Shown here piece by piece: positions 9,271-14,775 of a stretch of DNA of 64,000 nucleotides. Location: the NCBI GenBank assembly GCA_013200995.1, contig CP053688.1:2976001-3040000 (forward strand), given 5' to 3'. Source of the stretch: Arthrobacter citreus (GTDB lineage Bacteria; Bacillota; Bacilli; Bacillales; Bacillaceae_G). Both the position numbers and the translations under genes were made by a program. The notes under the pieces are model-generated. The model was given only the letters and a program-made list of their open reading frames with translations, was not told the DNA's origin and searched no databases. How positions within the stretch are numbered: position 1 is the stretch's first letter; each line of letters starts with the position of its first letter.

Positions 9271-9329
9271 AGTAGTTGATGATTCAAATATGATTACTAA
9301 AAATTTAAAATAAATGCGCTTTTAAAGTA

Positions 9330-9371
9330 GATTGTTGATTTTCTTATACGACTAGTTGAACAAGGATTTTT
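9330..9371 (+). repeat. Degenerate island repeat, copy R0 (right arm only)
   Basis: The stretch from TTTTCTTAT to TTGAACAAGGATT matches the right arm of the repeat family whose fuller copies lie at 11385 and 13237. The left arm and terminator hairpin are not recognisable. It is the first element of the series and precedes the small gene at 9424. Confidence 0.5.
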
Positions 9372-9423
9372 GTACATAACGTCGAATAATATCTATTAAA
9401 TTTAATTTTATCAGGAGAGAAAA

Positions 9424-9657
9424 ATGAAAAGAAATATCATATATGTTGTGTTATCACCAATAATTTTTTATTTATTACTAAACCTTTTTATAATAATTGG
9501 ATTTGACACGGATAATGCATTTGCTATTACACTTTCTATATTTTTAGGAATTATTATAAGTCTATTAGTATCGATTAATAAAAGACTTTCAACAGATACA
9601 CCAAAATCCGATAAAGTAAAAGCTGCTTATGCCAATAATCTGAAAGAGAGGAATTAA
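9424..9657 (+). CDS. Small two-helix membrane protein
   Basis: A 77-residue protein that I do not recognise. Two hydrophobic segments (about residues 4-24 and 31-49) are separated by a short acidic turn and followed by a charged tail rich in Lys and Asn. CAGGAGAG precedes the ATG. It is the first gene of the repeat-punctuated island, lying between copies R0 and R1, and it has no partner gene. A membrane anchor or small regulator is possible, but nothing in the sequence points to a specific function. Confidence 0.6.
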   Translation: MKRNIIYVVLSPIIFYLLLNLFIIIGFDTDNAFAITLSIFLGIIISLLVSINKRLSTDTPKSDKVKAAYANNLKERN

Positions 9658-9681
9658 CAATTAAGCAGAGGAAATTAAATG

Positions 9682-9770
9682 AATTCTTATTTATCTAACA
9701 GTGCGATTCTTCAAAAACGAAGGATCGTTTTTCTTATGCAGCTAAATGACAGGATAGTTGAATAAGAATC
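9682..9770 (+). repeat. Island repeat, copy R1
   Basis: A copy of the roughly 90-bp repeat family. It has a left arm (CTTATTTATCTAAC), then a terminator-like hairpin (about 9703-9727, CGATTCTTC facing GAAGGATCG, then a T run), then a right arm ending in GATAGTTGAATAAG (GTTGAAT at 9757-9763). It starts 25 bases after the stop of the preceding small gene and so also serves as its terminator. Confidence 0.75.
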
Positions 9771-9928
9771 TGAGCATTTTCTATGAATATCGTATTCAAA
9801 TCTAGGTTACATAAATACGCTTCTCGGCAATAAAAACGTTGGTGAATATTAACATTCTAATAGGGAAATTTAACTATATTAATTATCTACGTAACTTATA
9901 TTCCCATTTATAATTTCTGCATTTGTAA

Positions 9929-10045
9929 TGTAATTGTTTTATGTTGGTAAAAATAACACGAATCGGGCCTTTTTTATTCTTCCTATTGATTTGCATCCAT
10001 TTAGTGGGAGTTAAAAGTTATTGCATCATGAAAGGATCTTATTGA
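9929..10045 (+). pseudogene. 3' remnant of a gerAA-type germinant receptor gene
   Basis: Thirty-eight codons open from 9929 end in TGA immediately before the gerAB ATG. The segment TRIGPFLFFLL followed by IHLVGVKSY resembles the C-terminal end of GerAA proteins (a hydrophobic stretch, then HLV, basic residue, SF/SY). An in-frame stop at 9926 and the absence of any upstream coding sequence show the rest is gone. Position and frame coupling to gerAB support the call. The similarity is short. Confidence 0.45.
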
Positions 10046-11152
10046 ATGAATATTAATAGTTCAACTGATCGAATTAGCAATTTTCAAGCAATTATGTTTT
10101 TAACAAACTTTATTTTAGGAACTGGAATCTTAGTTCTTCCTAAAGTAGTAACAGAAAAAGTAAAAACTCCAGATTCGTGGATATCAGTCATTTTAGGTGG
10201 CTTATTATGTATTCTTGTCGTACTTTTACATGTTAAACTATGCCAAAAATACCCGAATGAAACGTTTTTTCAATTTAATCAAAAAATTGTTGGAAAATGG
10301 ATAGGCTTATTTCTAAGCTTAATTGTAATTTTCTATTACATAGTGCTTTCAGCATTTGAAGTTCGAACCTTGGTTGAAACGATAGGAATATATATACTTC
10401 AAGGCACTCCAATGTGGGCTATTATGATACCATTTATTTGGATCGGTCTATACTTAGTACTTGGTGGCATTAATTCGTTGGCTCGAATGTTAGAGATTAT
10501 ATTTCCTATTACGGCTATCTGCTTACTATTAGTTATATTTTTAGGTATCGGTATATTCGAAGTTGATAATTTACGTCCTGTATTAGGGATGGGAGTAAAA
10601 CCAATCCGTAAAGGAATAATAACTGCTAATTCAGTATTCTCTGGATTTGAAATTATTCTCTTTATATTTATGTTTATGAAAGAAAAAAAACAAGCACCCA
10701 AAGTCGTTATTATTGGACTTGGAATTCCTATTTTTTTCTATACAATGACTACAATTATAGTAGTTGGAGCACTTTCAGTAGACGGAGTATCGTTACAAAC
10801 ATGGCCAGTACTCACATATATTCGAGGTTATGAAATTCCAGGTCTTTTTTTTGAAAGGTTCGACTCTTTATTCATTGTAATTTGGATTATGCAAATATTT
10901 ACTACGTATACAATTGGTCTTTTTCTATCCGCTTTAGGAATGACACAAATTTTGAAAAAAAAATCTATTCGACCTTTTCTTTTTGGTATAATTCCTATTA
11001 TTTTTATCATTGCCAGTGTTCCTAGGAATATCAATGAGGTATTTAAAATGGGAGGAATGCAAGGAAATGTTGCTATTTATTTATTTAGTATACTTCCAAT
11101 CTTACTACTAATCATCTCCTTTATAAGAGGAAATATAGGTGCGAAAATTTAA
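10046..11152 (+). CDS. Spore germination permease, GerAB family
   Basis: A 368-residue APC-superfamily protein with ten hydrophobic segments and the family start (SNFQAIMFLTNFILGTGILVLP). GerAB-type subunits sit in the spore inner membrane, bind the germinant and form an ion channel with GerAA and GerAC. AAAGGA lies before the ATG. The neighbours are truncated: a gerAA tail directly upstream and a broken gerAC start overlapping its 3' end. It is therefore an orphan B subunit. Whether it still works with A and C subunits from elsewhere cannot be told. Confidence 0.88.
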   Translation: MNINSSTDRISNFQAIMFLTNFILGTGILVLPKVVTEKVKTPDSWISVILGGLLCILVVLLHVKLCQKYPNETFFQFNQKIVGKWIGLFLSLIVIFYYIVLSAFEVRTLVETIGIYILQGTPMWAIMIPFIWIGLYLVLGGINSLARMLEIIFPITAICLLLVIFLGIGIFEVDNLRPVLGMGVKPIRKGIITANSVFSGFEIILFIFMFMKEKKQAPKVVIIGLGIPIFFYTMTTIIVVGALSVDGVSLQTWPVLTYIRGYEIPGLFFERFDSLFIVIWIMQIFTTYTIGLFLSALGMTQILKKKSIRPFLFGIIPIIFIIASVPRNINEVFKMGGMQGNVAIYLFSILPILLLIISFIRGNIGAKI

Positions 11153-11279
11153 CATATTTCGTTCATATAACATTATTTGGATGCTAGTACTTTTTCTTTC
11201 ACGTCTTACAGGATATTGGAGCAATAAGATCATTCATTTAAAATCGACTCCATCTTCTGTTGAAGGTATTCAATTCTAG
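11139..11279 (+). pseudogene. Truncated gerAC-type lipoprotein gene
   Basis: A GTG start inside the end of gerAB opens a 46-codon frame. It begins like Ger(x)C lipoproteins: a basic start, a hydrophobic segment, then LTGYWS where the family has LTGCWS. The lipobox cysteine is thus replaced by Tyr, and similarity ends after about 30 residues, where full GerAC proteins run to about 370. The overlap with gerAB is the normal gerAB-gerAC arrangement. I read it as a dead remnant. Confidence 0.65.
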
Positions 11280-11384
11280 TTAACATAATCATTGGTAATA
11301 TAAATGTATATTTTGATAACAAATCTAATTCTAAAGATTTATTTCTTTTAACTTGGTTTAATATATTTGCTTTAATATTTACAA

Positions 11385-11470
11385 GCTTATGCAACTAACG
11401 CATGCGACTCTTCAATAGAAGATCGCTTTTTTTTATTCAACAAAATGGCAAGATAGTTCAATAAGGAATT
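11385..11470 (+). repeat. Island repeat, copy R2
   Basis: Left arm CTTATGCAACTAACGC, terminator hairpin (GCGACTCTTC facing GAAGATCGC, then T8), right arm TTATTCAACAAAATGGC to GATAGTTCAATAAGG. The central hairpin sequence differs from that of the other copies while the arms are conserved. It follows the gerAC remnant. The stretch 11280-11384 before it shows no gene. Confidence 0.8.
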
Positions 11471-11480
11471 AGAGTTTATA

Positions 11481-12062
11481 ATGGATTTACAACAGTCAAA
11501 ACTAGCATGCGGAGGAAAAAATGCATCATTTTTTTATAGAGTACCTAGAAAAAATTTTGATTTTTTTTATGAAAAGCGAATAATTAACGATATGTCCATT
11601 ATTAACGAAAGTGGTGAATCTGTTTTTATTTTACAAAAACAAAAGCATCGATTTTTTGCTAATATAGTTCACGAATTAATAGATAGTGGATTACCTTTTT
11701 GTTACAAGATAAGGAATGTTCATGGTCAAACTCTATTTAGTATTAATTGTGCTTTTCCAGGATTTCGTTATATTTTAATTGAACATTTATCTGGACAAGC
11801 CATACCGATTACTAAACATAGAGAACTTTCAACTGAATTATCGTATACTTTTATGATTTCTAACAATGAATATTTTTTTAAAAAAGATTTTAAAGATGCA
11901 GGTCATTTAATATGCGACAATAAAGAAGTAGCTGCTGTATCTATGCCATTTGATTCAGATGATAATAGAGAATTTGATAAAATTATTGTAAATGCGTCAT
12001 CAGAAGAAATTGCCCCACTTGCAGTCGTTTTATTTCATACTTTTTATTATTATGGTAGGTAG
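11481..12062 (+). CDS. Tubby-C-terminal-like protein, probable frameshift near the start
   Basis: The open frame gives 193 residues. From about residue 30 it resembles the small Bacillus proteins with a tubby/LURP-one-like beta barrel: alternating strands, for example SGESVFILQKQKHRF and PFCYKIRNVHGQTLFSI. The ATG at 11481 has no ribosome binding site. An excellent GGAGG at 11511 precedes an ATG at 11521 in another frame. That frame runs through T7 (11529-11535), and one extra T would join it to the main frame. So either one T is lost here (mutation or sequencing error) or translation starts poorly. The function of the family is not established. Confidence 0.5.
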   Translation: MDLQQSKLACGGKNASFFYRVPRKNFDFFYEKRIINDMSIINESGESVFILQKQKHRFFANIVHELIDSGLPFCYKIRNVHGQTLFSINCAFPGFRYILIEHLSGQAIPITKHRELSTELSYTFMISNNEYFFKKDFKDAGHLICDNKEVAAVSMPFDSDDNREFDKIIVNASSEEIAPLAVVLFHTFYYYGR

Positions 12063-12224
12063 GTAGGTGGCAATCTGCGTATCATATAAACGTTGAGAAG
12101 TATTATTGGATGATGGTACGGTAGAGATAGGTAAGTTCATAAGTGATGAGTACTATTAAGACTACAATTAGAGACCTTATTTAGGGCTTTTGTGATTAAC
12201 TTTTTATATTCTTTATGCAACTAA

Positions 12225-12896
12225 GTCGAGTAGAATGGAGTCTCTTTACCTTACAGTAAATTGAACTCCACCCCCCTCCCAGAACCGTGCTTGCACTATT
12301 AATGCACACGGCTCCTCCAACTTATCATTCACAGAATGTAGCAATCTTAAATATTGCTAATTCTACTATCCTTAATAGTTTTGTTTCCATTTATTCTACC
12401 TCTGTGTGTAGTAAATGTGTCCTTATTAAGGGTGATACTTTGGTAGCAGTCTTTCCTCCATCGGCATTACCCAACTTCATAGGTACTACACTGCTATCCG
12501 ACTCCCTACATCGGCATTTGGTTTCCTTACTTGTTATCGCTTGTACACCATACTCTTCTATTAAATGAAAAGACCGGTAGGGTCTCCCGAGTTGCCGTAT
12601 CATATCAATGTGTTACGTGCCAAGGTCTCTGACTCCGGAGAGGCTTTACCCTTCTTGCCTTAACGAAAGGTAAAACGTTGCTTTCTGCTATGCGTAAGGC
12701 ATCAGCCCTCTCGATTTACTAACATTTCGAAGCTCAATCCCTTCAACCATTTGGCTTTCGGCCCGCAACCTAACTGTCTACGCTTAAAGATTAAAGTTAC
12801 CTTTAATCCTCCAAGACTCGCTACGAGTGAATGGCTAGTTCTTTCTCGACGGGAATCCCACCCGCTATATGATACGACCTAGGCTCGGCCGCACAC
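12225..12896 (-). mobile_element. ORF-less group II intron
   Basis: On the minus strand the element begins GTGCGGCC, the conserved group II 5' end. It contains a typical domain V at 12282-12314 (GAGCCGTGTGC paired with GCACGGTTC). Domain VI follows, with GGAGT/ACTCC and TTTAC/GTAAA arms. The likely 3' end is ...TCGAC at 12225. At about 672 nt it is a ribozyme core with no reverse transcriptase. A start codon and 21 codons at 12325-12390 look like the remains of the deleted ORF. It is inserted in the palindrome of repeat R3, opposite to the surrounding genes. The exact ends are good to a few bases. Confidence 0.85.
12325..12390 (-). pseudogene. Remnant of the intron-encoded reverse transcriptase start
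   Basis: An ATG followed by METKLLRIVELA and nine more codons ends in TGA just before domain V. The opening resembles the first residues of group II intron maturase ORFs at the expected place in domain IV. I infer an internal deletion that left only the two ends. Confidence 0.4.
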
Positions 12897-13059
12897 GCAT
12901 GCATTAGTTGAGCAAGGTATGGATGTTAATCTAAAATTATCGGCTTAAAAATGTTGTAATTTGTCGGTTAATGTTTAAAAGTTGAACGATTTTCTTAATA
13001 TAAAATCCCTATCAATTTTCATTATAATTAGTGTATATAAGTTAAAGGAGAGTTAAAAA

Positions 13060-13206
13060 TTGAATAGAAATCAAGATAATAGAAACAATCAAAATCATAG
13101 AAATGACGATTCGTTCGACCGTGCTTTTTTTGGAAGTCCAGGTGTTATGCTTACATTAATCGCTATTATTATTTTAGGTTCTATCATTTGGAATTACTTT
13201 AAGTAA
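13060..13206 (+). CDS. Small single-pass membrane protein
   Basis: A 48-residue protein that starts at TTG, nine bases after AAAGGAG. Residues 1-20 are rich in Asn, Arg and Asp. Residues 29-44 form one hydrophobic helix (MLTLIAIIILGSIIW), and it ends in NYFK. I do not recognise the family. It lies in the island between repeats R3 and R4, and R4 begins 31 bases after its stop. The strong ribosome binding site and clean two-part composition support a real small gene. Confidence 0.65.
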   Translation: MNRNQDNRNNQNHRNDDSFDRAFFGSPGVMLTLIAIIILGSIIWNYFK

Positions 13207-13236
13207 TTTCTATTTTTATTTCTCTATTTTATGATC

Positions 13237-13332
13237 CCTTATGCAACTAACTGATGCATTAGTTGAACAACCTAAAGCTACTTCGGTAGCTTTTTCTTAT
13301 TCAAGTAAATGGCAGATTAGTTGAATAAGGAT
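13237..13332 (+). repeat. Island repeat, copy R4
   Basis: The clearest copy. The left arm CTTATGCAACTAAC...TTAGTTGAACAA is self-palindromic. The central hairpin AAAGCTACTTCGGTAGCTTTTT is a classic terminator. The right arm CTTATTCAAGTAA ATGGCAGA TTAGTTGAATAAGG is a 13-base inverted repeat with one mismatch. GTTGAAT lies at 13320-13326. Confidence 0.85.
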
Positions 13333-13434
13333 TATCTAAAATCCTATGTGCCGAGTGTAGCGAAGAAGGGATTAATGAGCAAAAGGACGAATACTATAAG
13401 TAACTAGAAAATATTGGAAAGTGCTCCTCGACGT

Positions 13435-14114
13435 GCTCCTTGCTTCGCTTCGTCCGCCCGTGAAAACAGAGTGGAATGACGAAGGAATGAAACGAAGAGC
13501 GGAGCGAGCGAGCATAGCGAAGGGAGAGAGTATAGCGATGAAAAAAAGTCGAATTTTACTGAGTATCTTGTTAGTTGGCATATTAGCTTTAGCAGGTTGT
13601 ACATCAGGTAACACATCGAAAAAGAAACAGGTTGATCCGAACATTGCGATGATCAAAACGGTGTTAGAAAAACAGGTGACCGGTCCAGATGCTGATTTGA
13701 AGAAGGCACTTGAATCACCGAATCCGCCTGCTGGTATCGAAGCCTACACGAATAAAGAGTTCAAGAAGTATTTCACGGATGCATCGTTCGAATCGTTTGT
13801 TTCGGCGTATGCACTTCGCTTCACATTTGAAGCGCACAAAAACGGGTTCACCTTAGCATACAAGGATGCGAAAGTGAATGCGGTGAAAGGCGAAAAAGGC
13901 GCGTATGATTATACCGTCACATTTGTTGCCAAAAAGAGCGGCAAGGATGACCAGACAATTGAGGTAACTGGACGATTTAACGTCAATGACGATCATAAGA
14001 TCGTACACGTCCGCTACAACGACGAAGATTTCGCAAAGGCCATGGCCGCGAAATAAACGCGCTCCTCACTGCACTCGTCCGCGTGTAAAGAACGAAGCGT
14101 CGTACAGAGTGGGT
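13435..14114 (+). other. GC-rich segment with imperfect flanking direct repeats
   Basis: From about 13425 to 14114 the sequence is clearly richer in G and C than its surroundings and uses GC-ending codons. Its two ends (13435-13474 and 14061-14114) share GCTCCT, then TCGTCCGC, then GTG/AAA and finally ACAGAGTGG in the same order and orientation. This suggests acquired DNA from a higher-GC Bacillaceae with related ends. The lipoprotein gene is its only gene. Confidence 0.55.
13538..14056 (+). CDS. Predicted lipoprotein of unknown function
   Basis: A 172-residue protein with a lipoprotein signal: MKKSR, a hydrophobic segment, and the lipobox LAGC with the cysteine at residue 21. The mature part holds an N-terminal helix-rich region and an alternating-strand C-terminal half (YDYTVTFVAKK, IEVTGRFNV, HKIVHVRYND), like small Bacillus lipoproteins with a cystatin-like fold. 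The ATG at 13538 follows AGGGAGAGAG. The longer frame upstream (from 13421) is GC-rich flank, not protein. Base composition differs strongly from the neighbours, which suggests transfer. Anchoring outside the membrane is expected. Confidence 0.7.
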   Translation: MKKSRILLSILLVGILALAGCTSGNTSKKKQVDPNIAMIKTVLEKQVTGPDADLKKALESPNPPAGIEAYTNKEFKKYFTDASFESFVSAYALRFTFEAHKNGFTLAYKDAKVNAVKGEKGAYDYTVTFVAKKSGKDDQTIEVTGRFNVNDDHKIVHVRYNDEDFAKAMAAK

Positions 14115-14153
14115 GAACAAAGTTGCAATTTAAAAATAGAAATAAACTGAATT

Positions 14154-14251
14154 TCCTTATTCAACTAACGCATGCATTAGTTCAACAACTGATCGACGAT
14201 TTTGTCGGTCTTTTTTATTGAACAAAATGGCAGGAAAGTGAAATAAGAATT
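14154..14251 (+). repeat. Island repeat, copy R5
   Basis: Left arm CCTTATTCAACTAACGC with the near-palindrome AACTAAcGCATGCaTTAGTT, a central GATCGACGATTTTGTCGGTC hairpin followed by T6, and right arm ATTGAACAAAATGGCAGG to GTGAAATAAG. ATTCAAC lies at 14159-14165. It follows the GC-rich lipoprotein gene. Confidence 0.8.
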
Positions 14252-14376
14252 AAAATTTACATATTTTTGCAAAGTTAGAATCACGTCAATTTACCTTATT
14301 ATGAAAATAGGAGTTTTATTAGAAATATTCATTTCGAGGAAAGTAGAAAAACTAATTTTTTTTAGGGGGGATTTAA

Positions 14377-14625
14377 CTGAAAAAATATATGAGATTAATT
14401 ATGAGTATAGTAGTCTTTATAATGATTTTTATAGCACAGAATAATAAAAATATATTCATTCAAAAAACTTTATTTGGCATAATTGGTATAATATGTATTT
14501 TGTCAGTATTACATCTTTTAAAAAAACGAAAACAATATTTTAAAGAAAGAAAATCAATAACTTTAACACGTATTATTGCCCCTTTAATTCTGATAATTTG
14601 TTGTTTATGGGAAATATTTTCTTAA
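14377..14625 (+). CDS. Small two-helix membrane protein
   Basis: About 82 residues with two hydrophobic segments separated by a short polar loop, then a Lys/Arg-rich stretch and a third hydrophobic end. No family is recognised. The best ribosome binding site (AGGGGGG at 14364-14370) is six bases before an in-frame CTG at 14377. The first ATG (14389) is 18 bases away, so CTG initiation is likely, though ATG cannot be excluded. It lies in the island between repeats R5 and R6. Confidence 0.55.
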   Translation: MKKYMRLIMSIVVFIMIFIAQNNKNIFIQKTLFGIIGIICILSVLHLLKKRKQYFKERKSITLTRIIAPLILIICCLWEIFS

Positions 14626-14689
14626 TCAACTACTATGGGAGTACAATTTAAACTTCCATTCACTGTTGTTAATTCTGGATTCATGGATG

Positions 14690-14775
14690 GCTAACGCATG
14701 GCTTTAGTGTCAACATGATCGGCTGAAAAGTCGATTTTTTTGGGTTCTAAATTGGAATTTAGTTGAAGAAGAACC
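14690..14775 (+). repeat. Degenerate island repeat, copy R6
   Basis: GGCTAACGCATGGCTTTAGTGTCAAC matches the left palindrome of R5 with several changes. A GATCGGCTGAAAAGTCGATTTTTTT hairpin and a right end AATTTAGTTGAAGAAGAA follow. It is the last copy of the series. The rest of 14776-14899 shows no gene. Confidence 0.55.

Follow-up and report, generated by a model that had tools for sequence, protein, structure and literature searches.

A chromosomal island in Gottfriedia is probably a satellite array of a cassette system with a dedicated Xer-like recombinase

We analysed a 64,000-nucleotide window (the whole stretch, C1:2976001-3040000) of a Gottfriedia genome deposited as Arthrobacter citreus (5.47 Mb, 3 contigs). 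Between positions 9330 and 14775 it contains an island with six gene units on the plus strand and seven intact or remnant copies (R0 to R6) of one structured repeat, all in a single orientation, as a preliminary description of this DNA had stated. We conclude, with a probability of about 0.78, that the island represents a small satellite array belonging to a site-specific cassette system with a dedicated Xer-like recombinase; the evidence is good for the array itself, for the movement of units one by one and for the association with one recombinase family. In its working, the system resembles a cross between an integron and dif modules, and we assign it to neither class. Soil relatives of Bacillus carry long rows of small genes that have moved singly, apparently by a Xer-type recombinase of their own.

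Analysis of 352 repeats from eleven genomes (300 left and 331 right halves) showed that the repeat consists of two 34-bp two-armed sites, L and R, flanking a terminator; the division of each site into 13-bp arms and an 8-bp spacer (13-8-13) is our own. The L site, with the consensus CTTAT[TGA][CGT]AACTAA - C[GT][CG]ATGCA - TTAGTTGAACAAC, follows each gene and runs from a gene-side arm through the spacer to a terminator-side arm. The R site, with the consensus TTTATTCAAC[AT]AA - ATGGCAGN - TTAGTTGAATAAG, precedes each gene and runs from a terminator-side arm through its spacer to a gene-side arm. The two sites stand in opposite orientation and divide the arrays into gene modules and terminator modules. 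Five consecutive T occur in the terminator core of 307 of the 349 complete repeats, and the hairpin of the core varies among copies, as had been noted from the window. In the arrays of genomes G006 and G008 (L071-L079, L138-L157), L spacers often read CTGGCGCG instead of C[GT][CG]ATGCA, as if species had their own site dialects.

The preliminary description had also proposed that the outer arms can pair. They are able to do so in R4, but across 193 repeats the variable positions of the outer arms did not covary with either their own or the preceding partner. The integron prediction, in which the left arm should match the right-arm tail of the preceding repeat, failed, with z near 0 at variable positions; the large z at positions 10-11 in this test compares a different set of right arms. 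Tails complementary at seven of seven positions numbered 6 with the repeat's own partner and 8 with the preceding one, against a permuted mean of 10.3. Of 231 repeats, 71 had an attC-like outer-arm fold as their minimum on the top strand and 61 on the bottom strand; after right arms had been swapped between repeats, the number was 79. RNAalifold returned no consensus fold and no pairs for the repeats; the detection model, built from 39 copies, was therefore sequence-only, and nhmmer profiles mapped further copies. Linkage (n = 193) was strong within L17-34 and also within the left portion of R, and the outer L arm was weakly linked to the other parts of the repeat, so the parts of one repeat do not have a single shared history.

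A search of the source genome with R4, which the preliminary description had suggested, gave at least 40 scored matches (178 candidates), and these excluded chance as the origin of the repeat. Apart from a few singles, the matches fell into clusters that each had one orientation: plus at C1 716-796 kb and in the window, minus at C2 129-177 kb and at C1 3288-3292 kb. They were not scattered in both directions. The repeat is present in all 13 Gottfriedia genomes. In 83 stretches totalling 1.95 Mb, which were chosen for holding repeat matches, we mapped 879 repeats, 492 of them complete; neighbouring repeats less than 4 kb apart lay on the same strand in 707 cases and on opposite strands in 53, and the largest run comprised 73 repeats across 59 kb (71 plus, 2 minus). 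The longest open reading frame (ORF) of the 497 units between repeats was on the strand of the repeat in 443 units and on the opposite strand in 44, and was under 50 aa in 10. Sites consisting of R only tend to mark array starts: 14 of 19 had no same-strand repeat within 3 kb upstream, compared with 61 of 449 complete repeats.

Comparison of the 497 units gives good support to the view that single gene units have moved between arrays. Homologous pairs numbered 88 on the same strand (70 at ≥80% and 39 at ≥90% identity) and one on opposite strands, and the neighbours of homologous units were themselves homologous in none of 45 downstream and none of 52 upstream tests. Within the window, unit 5 (13330-14155, plus strand, between R4 and R5) matches a unit of the C1 3.29-Mb array at 100% identity across 826 bp, and the flanks of the two copies are unrelated. 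The preliminary description had asked whether units appear or vanish between strains; the island itself is flanked by chromate-transporter and glycerate-kinase genes and is absent from all nine relatives that keep this gene pair together. The gaps in these nine relatives contain neither a repeat (profile E ≤ 0.1) nor any match to the island; in eight of them, the matched ends are 108-137 bp apart, and in G009 they are 1872 bp apart. Genomes G004, G006 and G008 are uninformative, because the flanking pair is not together there. The 1.87-kb insert between the flanking genes of G009 (L118, G009 C133:11001-13800) is unrelated, with no repeat (best profile E 0.26) and no match to the island, and indicates that this spot takes insertions more than once.

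When pairs at least 80% identical were aligned (34 left and 48 right junctions), identity began inside the R site and ended inside the L site. The earlier expectation of a breakpoint in the right arm was thus borne out in part: breaks do fall in the R half, and the left half holds one too. All 15 pairs that were at least 95% identical differed at positions L28-32, and 1 of the 15 differed in the last three cassette bases. For the left junction, the likelihood peak was at -7, in the outer arm, with 34 pairs (≥80%) and with 17 pairs (≥92%), and at -22 with the 12 pairs that were at least 96% identical; for the right junction, it was at L14 with all 48 pairs and at L2-6 with the 23 pairs at ≥92%. 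A first estimate, made from 17 left and 13 right pairs, had placed both breaks in the outer arms; more pairs broadened the range, and we therefore claim no cut position. The terminator core after the gene was shared in none of 6 pairs at ≥90% identity and the core before the gene in 5 of 17, a core being counted as shared if its similarity exceeded 0.83, the 99th percentile for 500 random pairs. From these counts, L-L and R-R exchange both seem to occur, with terminators being re-assorted.

The preliminary description had invoked a recombinase that it could not name, and had suggested a search for a tyrosine recombinase gene near an array. The second replicon of this genome encodes a strong candidate. 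Among the 12 Phage_integrase proteins of the genome is a 292-aa Xer-like tyrosine recombinase (C2:127788-128663), which is encoded inside the C2 array and antiparallel to it, with a lone R site 55 bp ahead of its start. Its likely catalytic residues, which we take to be those of the motifs GCR, GKG, HQLRH, GH and Y, can be read. In 11 stretches (ten from Gottfriedia and one from Sporosarcina), the lone site upstream of the recombinase was clear in seven, weak in two and absent from two. Uninterrupted full-length copies occur in the genus in G000, G001, G006 (two) and G008. The protein scored 213.8 bits against NF040815 (cut-off, 220), 203.5 against XerD, 200.6 against XerC and 93.1 against the integron integrase model TIGR02249 (cut-off, 265), and the nearest solved structures were those of the XerA-type protein 4a8e (117 bits) and XerD 1a0p, with IntI4 in the PDB at 55.6 bits. 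By these scores it is XerA/XerC/XerD-like, yet below those cut-offs in Gottfriedia; it differs from XerA, XerC and XerD in being a second, accessory copy carried on arrays and plasmids. Two further features were observed near this gene. A second tyrosine recombinase of 388 aa lies 2 kb from it in the C2 array (L018:14408-15571), and in many genera (L158-L173) the interval from the recombinase start to the lone site contains a conserved stretch like AGAGGAATTATTGCC, which is possibly involved in regulation of the recombinase or forms part of the docking site.

Proteins matching the recombinase at E ≤ 1e-60 numbered 814 in the database, of which the best 120 were listed. Across 397 genomes of the order, the recombinase was found in 66 (E ≤ 1e-90) and the repeat in 111 (E ≤ 1e-5, ten candidates scored per genome). 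Both were present in 34, the recombinase only in 32, the repeat only in 77 and neither in 254 (Fisher p = 9e-6); outside the genus, the corresponding counts were 27, 32, 72 and 254 (p = 3e-4). We then took one locus from each of 20 of the 66 recombinase genomes, with intact genes and varied genera preferred. Seventeen of the 20 loci had repeats that matched the Gottfriedia profile at E < 0.1; of these repeats, 75 were antiparallel to the recombinase and 7 were parallel, and 15 loci had antiparallel ones. Controls for these loci (three Markov-resampled sets and the reversed sequences) gave no repeat matches. This layout recurs on a plasmid of Sporosarcina psychrophila, which has a site variant of its own. 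Repeat searches around two distant recombinases from metagenome-assembled genomes (MAGs; L037 and L040) found no array. Among eight plasmid or MAG loci, palindromic sites exceeded shuffles in three (L104, L106 and L107) and were not found by that pattern in L105, L108, L109, L037 and L040; weak matches to the repeat model were seen in L105 and L107-L109. A plasmid DNA search with part of the C2 array returned mainly group II introns.

In the mechanism that we propose, gene modules alternate with terminator modules, the two being set apart by L and R sites, and the 292-aa recombinase would catalyse exchange between two R sites or between two L sites. Small units, either a terminator plus a gene or a gene plus a terminator, would be excised and reinserted with circles as intermediates, which would move genes between arrays and re-assort the terminators, each of which may insulate the preceding transcript.

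Several observations weigh against this interpretation. Eight other members of the genus have a broken or partial recombinase, or only a 31% XerD-like match, and all 13 genomes keep repeats. In the order-level survey, with the thresholds and candidate number given above, repeats without the recombinase occurred in 77 genomes and the reverse in 32, and of the 20 loci, three had no repeat match and two had parallel matches only. The 53 opposite-strand neighbour repeats and the 44 opposite-strand genes are exceptions to the uniform orientation, and the junction likelihoods, left and right, disagree on a single break position. Host XerC/XerD types are also among the 12 Phage_integrase proteins of the genome. 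Finally, the role of the recombinase, the circular intermediate and the exact cut are inferred from sequence comparisons.

It is unlikely, in our judgement, that the same cassette arrays are moved by the host XerC/XerD pair, as a Bacillales version of the dif (pdif) modules of Acinetobacter, with the 292-aa recombinase as a passenger. The genome does encode XerD-like proteins (31% to the 292-aa query) and arrays do remain where the 292-aa gene is broken; however, the lone R site and the antiparallel repeats go with the 292-aa family in the genus, on the Sporosarcina plasmid and at most of the 20 loci. The B. subtilis dif sequence is presumably unlike the L and R sites. The dif modules are reported to have two-armed sites in alternating inverted orientation with a 6-bp spacer and to be added as module pairs (PMC13141974). 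Here, likewise, alternating two-armed sites bound two module types, as seen in the L and R logos and in their alternation along the arrays, and modules are expected to move in pairs. Nevertheless, the sites found were 13-8-13, with a spacer of 8 bp, and not XerC/XerD sites around the 6-bp spacer stated in that source. Moreover, one module type here is only a terminator, the candidate recombinase is the system's own and has its lone site, and the arrays are chromosomal, with tens of units in one orientation.

We consider it quite unlikely that the system is a true branch of the integrons, in which attC sites would fold as single strands and be cut in their outer right arm, with the lone R site as attI and a divergent IntI as the recombinase. 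The likeness is extensive: an antiparallel recombinase gene lies by a lone site, long one-orientation arrays hold cassettes that mostly have a single gene, each gene being followed by a repeat, and the four-box repeat has a variable central hairpin. Satellite arrays without a recombinase (as in clusters of attC sites lacking integron-integrases, or CALINs), host-specific site variants and group II introns within sites are shared as well, and the likelihood peak of the left junction is in the outer right arm. In contrast to integrons, the recombinase is of the Xer type and far under the TIGR02249 cut-off, and the repeat is built of a terminator with a two-armed site on either side; its outer arms do not covary with own or preceding partners and fold no better than the arm-swap control. 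Exchange seems to take place at both halves, and the gene's own terminator core stays with it in none of the 6 pairs. On these grounds, membership of the repeats among attC sites, as considered in the preliminary description, is not supported. A lone site beside the recombinase and one-orientation cassettes that are singly mobile, as judged from comparisons, were found; an IntI-type integrase, a conserved attC fold and an own downstream site kept intact were not.

That units are moved by RecA-dependent homologous recombination between dispersed repeats, without a site-specific recombinase, is very unlikely. Repeats that are about 75% identical could supply short homology, and arrays remain where no recombinase is found, but this homology is diverged and less than 100 bp long, the breaks are confined to the sites, and the arrays contain a conserved recombinase together with a docking half-site. 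The preliminary description had offered, as alternatives, a cassette array and a terminator-carrying miniature inverted-repeat transposable element (MITE) or bcr-like interspersed repeat, with the genes between copies there by chance. The repeat is short, with palindromic ends, many copies, no gene of its own and some single copies, as a MITE would be. The MITE alternative is nevertheless extremely unlikely, as the scattered single copies in both orientations typical of such elements were not found; the copies are clustered and co-oriented, the 497 gene units are mostly in one orientation, and whole gene units recur with new neighbours and have breaks within repeats, which already contradicts a chance association with genes.

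Within the window, the seven copies that were first counted are of different kinds: R1, R2, R4 and R5 are complete, R6 is degenerate, R0 is only a lone R site and R3 is an L site split by an intron. All features are on the plus strand except that intron, and profile E-values were computed for the 64-kb window. A leader, AAAGTAGATTGTTGA (9324-9338), precedes R0; it was found by a pattern search with up to two mismatches, several of whose 25 matches are by chance, and it also lies ahead of several other array starts. A leader like GGCTCTGTTAAAGTAGATTGTTGATTTT, which resembles the end of some mobile element, occurs before several lone R sites (window 9313-9342 and array starts in L014, L027, L052, L067 and L086). 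R0 itself (9343-9365), the array start, was read by eye as a lone R site (CTTATACGAC/TAGTTGAACAAGG) that has lost its spacer, and was not listed by the repeat profile at E ≤ 10. Unit 1 (9424-9657) encodes a 77-aa small protein without a Pfam or PHROG match and is followed by R1 (9686-9766; E = 2.3e-9), in the order L site, terminator, R site. Unit 2 (10046-11152) encodes a 368-aa spore germination permease (PF03845, E = 9.2e-93) ahead of R2 (11386-11465; E = 6e-12), and unit 3 (11481-12062) a 193-aa Tubby_C_like protein (PF23728, E = 2.6e-17). R3 follows in two parts, recognised from their sequence: the gene-side arm of the L site (12213-12224) and its spacer with the terminator-side arm (12895-12917; E = 0.37), with neither a terminator nor an R site downstream. 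Unit 4 (13060-13206) is a 48-aa ORF with a TTG start and a hydrophobic segment. R4 (13238-13329; E = 1.2e-20) comprises an L site (13238-13271), a terminator hairpin and an R site (13296-13329). The protein of unit 5 (13538-14056) is lipoprotein-like and 172 aa long, with its signal and Cys recognised by eye and a DUF7926 match below the cut-off; it is followed by R5 (14156-14247; E = 4.8e-17), whose right arm is degenerate. Unit 6 (14389-14625) is read as an ORF for a 78-aa small hydrophobic protein, and the degenerate R6 (14691-14771; E = 7.3e-5) ends the island.

The intron within the L site of R3 (12225-12894, minus strand) is a group II intron that lacks an ORF and is about 670 nt long (Rfam RF02005, 168 bits; RF00029, 43 bits); it lies antisense to the array, and its insertion point matches that in other L sites. 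When the fetched loci were searched with a pattern for its 5' end, 15 places matched, with identical flanks counted once: the window (12225-12894), L016, L017, L019, L023, L024, L046, L053, L084, L088, L102, L128, L160, L165 and L105. Twelve were clear L sites, with the intron directly after the spacer, and 11 of these introns followed the forward direction of the L site, the window copy being reversed; two were in R-like sites (L160 and L165) and one was in a weak site (L105). This arrangement is reminiscent of the group IIC-attC introns, which are reported to home to the integron cassette recombination site (PMC7923331). Here, too, insertion is at one point of a cassette recombination site; unlike those introns, the ones described here mostly follow the array orientation, with the window copy opposite.

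We think it somewhat probable that the Bacillales have independently evolved a counterpart of the integron, with a Xer-derived recombinase, a lone docking site and gene-plus-terminator arrays, in dozens of genera. In the IntegronFinder 2.0 study, integrons of Firmicutes are reported to amount to one complete case, in Limnochorda pilosa, and a few CALINs (PMC9024848). No prior description of such Bacillales arrays was found in the literature searched, in which subscription papers and preprints were thinly covered, and an earlier description is possible. If our interpretation is correct, such an independent counterpart would help to explain the near absence of classical integrons from Firmicutes. 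It would mean that cassette arrays had arisen separately here, with seemingly double-stranded sites and with the terminator as a second exchangeable module. Many small, unannotated Bacillales genes would then be mobile units, and it would become possible to test in easily grown soil bacteria how cassettes acquire and lose sites.

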